A DNA stretch of 64,000 nt from Pelagibacteraceae bacterium AG-349-L17 (lineage in GTDB: Bacteria; Pseudomonadota; Alphaproteobacteria; Pelagibacterales; Pelagibacteraceae), in the NCBI GenBank assembly GCA_003278805.1, contig QCDC01000001.1:78310-142309 (forward strand), written 5' to 3'. Positions 22,496-23,194 of the stretch are shown piece by piece. The position numbers were made by a program, and so were the translations under genes. The notes under the pieces are model-generated. The model ran no database searches and was not told the origin of the DNA. It saw nothing but the letters and a program-made list of their open reading frames with translations. Each line of letters begins with the position of its first letter. Position 1 is the stretch's first letter.

Positions 22496-23194
22496 CTAAC
22501 TAAATAATTGAAAAAATTTTTCAAAAATACCCCTATTTTTGCTAATTTTTGGGATTAATTGGACTTCATTTAAATTTGATCCATTTAAAATTTTATAAAC
22601 CATAACAGGAAATTTAATTTTTTGATCTTCAAAGAAACTACTTACGTATTCTTTATCTAGATACTTGTTAATCTTAATTTGATATTTTTCTAACAAATTT
22701 TCTAAGGGATATGACAAGTTTTCTGGAATTGAAATAAAGTTTATAATCAAACTTAAATCCTCTGCTTGAATTTCTTTTTTTAGGTATTCAAAATTTTTGC
22801 CATTTATCAAGTAATTATTAACAATAATATGCATTATTTTTTGATCTTTGTAACTTTTTTGAAACAATTCTTTTGACTCTACAACCAAACTTTTAATAGC
22901 ATTGTAATTTAATACTTTATTGTAATTTTTTTTTTTAATTCCAATATGTGTCCTAAATAATTGCTCATTTTCAATTATTATGAATATATTTTTTACAAAT
23001 TTACCAATTAACTTCTCTATTTTTAAAATATTTTCATCAAGAAAATTATCAAGACTTGTGTAATCTAAAGAATTATTTTCAATTATAATTTCATTGCTGT
23101 ATAAATTCTCAAACCTTATAACATCAAATAAATAAATTTCTAATTTATTACTTGAAATACATAAGTAGGTTTCTGTATTTGACTCTTCATTCAT
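22496..23194 (-). CDS. Short FtsA-like protein in the ftsA position (no ATPase core)
   Basis: 232-aa protein between ftsQ and lpxC, where ftsA belongs, overlapping ftsQ by eight bases. Full FtsA is about 400-430 aa. Residues 44-80 resemble the helix-strand that precedes FtsA subdomain 1C. Residues 80-190 follow the 1C (SHS2) pattern: HIGIKKK.., a helix, then IMHIIVNNYLINGK, like the 'ilHviP.~Y.vDg' of FtsA, and a helix-strand-helix ending in VSSFF. The last 14 residues (KNRGIFEKFFQLFS) form an amphipathic helix like the FtsA membrane-targeting tail. No phosphate loops or 2A/2B domains are present. Assignment rests on position and pattern; a different divisome protein is possible. Confidence 0.6.
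   Translation of the reverse strand: MNEESNTETYLCISSNKLEIYLFDVIRFENLYSNEIIIENNSLDYTSLDNFLDENILKIEKLIGKFVKNIFIIIENEQLFRTHIGIKKKNYNKVLNYNAIKSLVVESKELFQKSYKDQKIMHIIVNNYLINGKNFEYLKKEIQAEDLSLIINFISIPENLSYPLENLLEKYQIKINKYLDKEYVSSFFEDQKIKFPVMVYKILNGSNLNEVQLIPKISKNRGIFEKFFQLFS

Follow-up and report, generated by a model that had tools for sequence, protein, structure and literature searches.

The stretch of DNA analysed here (the window, 64,000 nucleotides of contig QCDC01000001.1 from Pelagibacteraceae bacterium AG-349-L17) carries, in the place of the cell division gene ftsA, an open reading frame (ORF) for a protein of 232 amino acids (aa). The ORF starts with ATG and was located at 22496..23194 on the minus strand. 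It is flanked upstream by ftsQ (23187..23858, minus strand), identified with the Pfam models POTRA_1 and FtsQ_DivIB_C, and downstream by lpxC (21511..22431, minus strand), identified with Pfam LpxC. The position beside ftsQ in the division and cell wall (dcw) gene cluster is typical of FtsA, and relatives encode full-length FtsA in the same slot. A previous reading of the letters without database searches (the sequence-only reading) had assigned the ORF to the ftsA slot, and the coordinates and the Pfam neighbours agree with this. The dcw cluster around the short gene otherwise looks ordinary, with ftsW, ftsI and ftsZ further up (named by eye). The genome of the window (G000) has a size of 1.2 Mb on 25 contigs and is about 90 percent complete. 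FtsA is regarded as the common membrane anchor and adenosine triphosphate (ATP)-driven organiser of the Z ring.

Domain layout of the short protein

Using the secondary structure of a fold model, about residues 1-75 (22970..23194, minus strand) were assigned to the first part of subdomain 1A, and about residues 76-187 (22634..22969, minus strand) to the SHS2-like subdomain 1C and the return into 1A; these boundaries are approximate. Residues 188-232 (22499..22633, minus strand) comprise, according to model, alignment and conservation, the last helix of 1A, a linker with the motif G-x-N-x-N-E-V, and the C-terminal helix. Within this part, residues 219-232 (22499..22540, minus strand) were predicted to be a membrane-targeting helix, based on a motif common to short and full-length forms. 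The fold model and structure comparison place subdomain 1C at its FtsA position inside 1A. Both halves of 1A are retained; lobe I is thus complete, and lobe II is absent.

Alignment with full-length relatives places the site of the missing lobe II between residues 187 and 188 (22633..22634, minus strand). All 30 short forms in the alignment (a subset of the 67 intact ones described below) shared a single gap position, both ends aligned with full-length forms, and the gap spanned 141-161 aa of the full-length genus members aligned with them. The sequence-only reading had reported no ATP-binding actin motifs, and this was borne out. At the phosphate-1 columns of the full-length relatives, the window protein has Cys for Asp and Ser for Gly; the Asp was found in 0/30 and the Gly in 3/30 of the short forms. 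The phosphate-2 and adenosine motifs belong to lobe II, which is absent from short forms. The lobe-II landmarks G224, D231, K247, R274, E277, G302 and G304 (numbering of the full-length protein L034), which are invariant in alignment A3 (37 full-length proteins), all lie within the missing part.

The C-terminal helix motif GFFEKFF is common to 67 short and 31 full-length proteins, with F228 present in 67/67 short forms. In the same comparison, the linker G205-x-N207-x-N209-E210 was near-invariant in short forms and not so in full-length ones. The tail of the fold model is a helix at residues 223-230 with a low predicted local distance difference test score.

Descent from FtsA and occurrence among relatives

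A profile constructed from short forms only was compared to all sequences of the PDB, and three FtsA chains were the only matches below an E-value of 0.01 (3.3e-4 to 4e-3); profile positions 47-190 matched positions 54-195 of solved FtsA. Profile-profile alignment of short with full-length forms resulted in a probability of 99.8 and an E-value of 1.2e-29, with 25 percent identity over lobe I. The fold model, made from short forms alone, was confident, and its best structural match was solved FtsA, with the 1A/1C fold present. The 232-aa protein descends from FtsA, keeps lobe I and lacks lobe II. In the sequence-only reading, the middle of the protein followed the FtsA 1C/SHS2 pattern, which the profile and fold matches support, and the whole was described as FtsA reduced to SHS2 plus a membrane helix; the descent stands, but lobe I is retained entirely, 1A as well as 1C, and only lobe II is missing. 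The protein was filed as an FtsA variant and not as ordinary FtsA because it fails two defining features of FtsA structure as well as the curated FtsA models.

Solved FtsA structures (T. maritima 1E4F/4A2A, V. maritimus 7Q6F/7Q6I, E. coli 7Q6D, S. aureus 3WQT) share with the short form the lobe I fold of 1A plus 1C, the order of elements, the place beside ftsQ and the C-terminal helix, which in the short form is predicted. They differ from it by the presence of lobe II and the ATP motifs; without lobe II, the short form would have neither the site in 2B that binds the FtsZ peptide nor the longitudinal IIA-IIB contact. Full-length FtsA of the genus (e.g. L034, 369 aa) has the same slot and the same C-terminal helix motif as the short form. 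PilM and the cytoplasmic domain of GspL/EpsL are likewise actin-like, serve membrane machines of other systems (type IV pili and type II secretion, respectively), and were among the next best matches by fold, with lower scores. A replacement of ftsA in its slot by another SHS2/actin-like adaptor of the PilM or GspL type is extremely improbable: FtsA ranked first by fold, by sequence profile and by gene position, above these proteins in both fold and profile, and the short form can be aligned with the full-length FtsA that occupies this slot elsewhere in the genus.

There is next to no likelihood that ftsA was split and lobe II is encoded by a separate gene. A lobe-II profile had no match in the window's genome or in single-contig genomes with a short form, which rules out a split gene within the sensitivity of the profile, a strongly diverged lobe II below detection being possible. 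The Pfam FtsA model PF14450 matched just one protein of the window's genome, a 344-aa protein that reads by eye as MreB. A second ftsA, which would have contradicted the sequence-only reading, was not found in this genome at its completeness of about 90 percent. The 232-aa protein itself was matched by no model of Pfam or NCBIfam at E-values up to 10. PF14450 scored above its cut-off on this MreB-like protein (L001 1018-2052), so that automatic counts could falsely credit short-form genomes with FtsA.

Homologues of the 232-aa protein were searched in 197 genomes of the order. The same-slot relatives come in two sizes, about 220-245 aa and about 370-405 aa; full-length FtsA of the window's genus has 368-391 aa. 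The distance between ftsQ and lpxC was 688-769 bases with a short form or 1133-1301 bases with a full-length form, and no intermediate was present among the fetched loci with both neighbours. According to a tally from the match listings, the 117 sampled genomes of the window's genus include 67 intact short forms (window included) and 31 intact full-length forms; of the other 19, 10 carry a short form that is broken or truncated at a contig end, one (G022) has a full-length form truncated at a contig end, and 8 gave no match or only a marginal one. Since 67 intact short forms occupy the same slot, the short ORF is not a chance frame, and the same short protein was indeed found in relatives, as the sequence-only reading had proposed to check. 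Assembly error was ruled out, with the short form present in 67 genomes and intact on a single contig in four of them (G003, G005, G013 and G020).

Among the matches listed for genera g2-g6 and family f2, all were long frames except the contig-end-cut G038 and G054; G195 (g5) gave a weak match, the place of which was not listed. A profile of lobe II only matched 95/197 genomes, none of them a short-form genome, single-contig genomes included. Within the genus, it matched 32/117 genomes, all with a full-length ftsA or a contig-end-cut one (G022). The short-form profile was also run against 289 genomes of the class and matched 18, namely two short forms of the genus, one full-length form of the family, and 15 genomes outside the order with frames of 415-452 aa. 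The profile does not reach the other 271 class genomes, and short forms elsewhere in the class are therefore possible.

Two loci have only 4/12 dcw genes near the short ftsA, L114 (G142) within a stretch of 19.9 kb and L118 (G105) within 9 kb up to the contig end; in both, the cluster may be broken. Of the metagenome proteins P0036 and P0045, one is a short ftsA product running into an MreB-like C-terminus and one has an internal repeat; both are possibly assembly chimaeras.

Selection and history of lobe II loss

The ratio of nonsynonymous to synonymous substitution rates (dN/dS) of short ftsA was 0.13-0.29 in 8 pairs; for the same pairs, values of 0.12-0.26 and 0.04-0.10 were obtained for ftsQ and lpxC, respectively. 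Short ftsA is under purifying selection. A decaying remnant heading for loss and without a division role is therefore very improbable, as this selection test largely refutes it and 67 intact same-slot copies, conserved residues including F228 in 67/67, and a confident fold stand against it as well. In its favour are an evolutionary rate of the short protein of about that of FtsQ and two genomes with broken copies. In the single-contig genome G026 (L051 16767-17462) the gene is frameshifted near an A-run, and in G152 (L094 1294-2000) it contains an in-frame stop; each may be a sequencing error or a true break.

Several residues distinguish the short forms from the full-length forms of the genus: F51 (59/67 versus 1/31), N55 (61/67 versus 1/31), F66 (61/67 versus 1/31), and E210 (67/67 versus 6/31), with a less certain alignment of the linker around position 210. 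Such residues may mark a novel interface or a face that is covered.

In a tree of 11 concatenated neighbouring proteins, the short forms appeared in four places, corresponding to at least three changes. The neighbour trees were calculated with 119 of 138 loci and with a second set of 57 chosen loci; in the latter, long branches were flagged and four short rows had less than half of their positions filled. The neighbour data rejected one clade uniting all short forms (log-likelihood 408 lower; p-value of the approximately unbiased test, p-AU, 2.6e-35), this test having been made after the first tree was seen. In the ftsA lobe-I tree (68 rows), a weakly supported branch (69/46) had all 30 short forms on the same side, and a grouping of L032-L035 with the main short clade, as in the neighbours, was only just not rejected (p-AU 0.064). 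In a tree of 40 full-length FtsA, L032-L035 branched as the sister group of the remaining full-length genus members. With lpxC, a grouping of these loci with the other full-length clade was rejected (p-AU 0.023) and one with the short clade was not (p-AU 0.10); ftsQ alone gave no decision on their placement. A single clade is rejected by the neighbours but not by the lobe-I tree, and the junction place is identical in every short form aligned; two histories therefore remain, either recurrent deletion or one deletion combined with gene exchange. Under recurrent loss, lobe II would have been excised repeatedly where one cut leaves lobe I whole.

FtsA of the sister genera g5 and g6 (e.g. L039 and L049; 376-401 aa) has kept lobe II, unlike the short form. 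Like the short form, it has lost the ATP motifs: the phosphate-1 Asp and Gly, the phosphate-2 Asp, and G302/G304 were changed in 8/8 aligned loci (L039, L046, L049, L050, L142, L144, L145 and L146), and the phosphate-2 Gly in 7/8. Lobe-II residues, for instance R274 and E277, are retained. Judged from these columns, FtsA of g5 and g6 is likely a pseudo-ATPase and a second way of giving up ATP. In the outgroup family f2 (L157, L158, L159, L160 and L162), the phosphate-1 Asp was changed in 2/5 and its Gly in 4/5, and the phosphate-2 Asp in 2/5 and its Gly in 4/5, with the G302/G304 pair kept. Since the outgroup columns vary too, motif drift in the order is wider than the short forms.

Proposed function and the holding of FtsZ

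The ftsZ gene of the window (493 aa, named by eye) is located at 37472..38953 on the minus strand. Its product ends with DDLEIPAFLRRQKN, and the C-terminal peptide LEIPAFLRRQKN is encoded at 37475..37510 (minus strand). The peptide was kept in 57/57 short-form loci, among them the two with broken ftsA (L051 and L094), and in 45/45 full-length loci, with IPSFLR in place of IPAFLR in two of the latter. Only loci with complete FtsZ were counted; two partial FtsZ were dropped, and loci not reaching ftsZ were left out. The sequence-only reading that FtsZ retains its docking peptide thus holds well beyond the window.

In other FtsA proteins, lobe II closes over ATP, and the site for this peptide in PDB 4A2A lies in its subdomain 2B. 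PMC5508204 gives the site in 4A2A as that of FtsA for the FtsZ C-terminal peptide. As described in PMC7613929, the longitudinal contact of the FtsA filament is formed between IIA and IIB, and in gamma-proteobacterial FtsA lateral contacts are made by IC and the FtsN tail binds to the IA-IC cleft. With the loss of lobe II, both the IIA-IIB contact and the 2B site would be gone, and the short form should be incapable of forming actin-like filaments or of binding FtsZ at the established site. A site of the FtsN type and the lateral face may persist. The short protein is thus probably a membrane-bound, nucleotide-free divisome adaptor, for which actin-like polymerisation and FtsZ binding via 2B are both unlikely. 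This supports the minimal adaptor without actin machinery envisaged in the sequence-only reading, and we infer in addition that FtsZ is no longer held by the short protein. In such an adaptor, the C-terminal helix would bind the membrane, the longitudinal IIA-IIB filament contact could not form, the 1A-1C cleft and the 1C face would continue to recruit later division proteins or to signal to them, and the holding of FtsZ to the membrane would have been taken over by another binder of its C-terminal peptide.

Several results weigh against this proposal. The hydrophobic moment of the last 11-13 residues was reached by 9 to 17 percent of shuffles and is not significant, and other windows at residues 56-71 exceeded the tail; membrane binding is therefore argued from homology. 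FtsN, the usual partner of the 1A-1C cleft, was not recognised in the window's genome, in which the sole SPOR match (L250 964-1725) reads as an RlpA-like lipoprotein. No other FtsZ anchor was identified: the Pfam model of SepF matched 0/197 genomes (and 7/14 control genomes), and that of ZipA 0/58 genomes (and the E. coli control). In 12 neighbouring proteins (FtsZ, FtsQ, FtsW, FtsI and eight others), no column separated short from full-length lineages; a co-adaptation to a changed anchor was thus not seen. A column was required to have every short group in agreement and every full-length group of the genus on another residue, at 80 percent within each group; for most of the proteins, one short group was represented by just 2 loci.

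Of the further candidates, FtsX_ECD matched 0/58 genomes, which is uninformative because the Caulobacter control also gave no match. ZapA was present in the window's genome and in 82/121 genomes of that sample; it is a cytosolic cross-linker and is not known as an anchor. PMC13170164 names FzlC, alongside FtsA, as a tether of FtsZ in Agrobacterium.

In the principal alternative, the Z ring remains anchored by the short protein, with a new surface, either the area bared by the loss of lobe II or the C-terminal linker, binding the FtsZ C-terminal peptide in place of 2B. This is consistent with the retention of the peptide in all short-form loci, with F51, N55, F66 and E210, which are near-invariant in short forms and mostly absent from full-length forms of the genus, and with the failure of the Pfam models to find SepF and ZipA. 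The peptide is, however, equally kept in full-length lineages, other proteins bind it too, and the new conserved residues may serve only to shield an exposed face or to form a dimer. A new FtsZ-binding surface is accordingly considered rather unlikely, though the most serious competitor of the adaptor that has given up FtsZ.

In its widest form, the adaptor proposal is put forward tentatively, at somewhat less than even likelihood: much of Pelagibacter would divide without an actin-like FtsA, and ATP, filaments and the 2B-FtsZ bond would be dispensable. Lobe II would have been cut at the same place in several lineages, g5 and g6 would have kept the lobe and lost ATP, lobe I would be irreducible, and another protein would hold the FtsZ peptide. 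Widespread streamlined marine bacteria with lobe I only would represent a natural experiment separating the functions of the two lobes, in which the downstream, membrane-side half of FtsA would prove indispensable. The need of FtsA for ATP and polymers becomes directly testable by comparing close relatives that have kept or lost lobe II. The unchanged FtsZ C-terminal peptide raises the question of its binding partner in the short-form lineages, and these bacteria likely attach their Z ring to the membrane in a novel way.

A short FtsA in SAR11 is described in no title or abstract opening among the open-access literature matches listed, a scope outside of which most subscription journals lie. 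Elsewhere in the window, a 947-aa ORF at 31604-34447 (minus strand) reads by eye like fused MurE and MurF.
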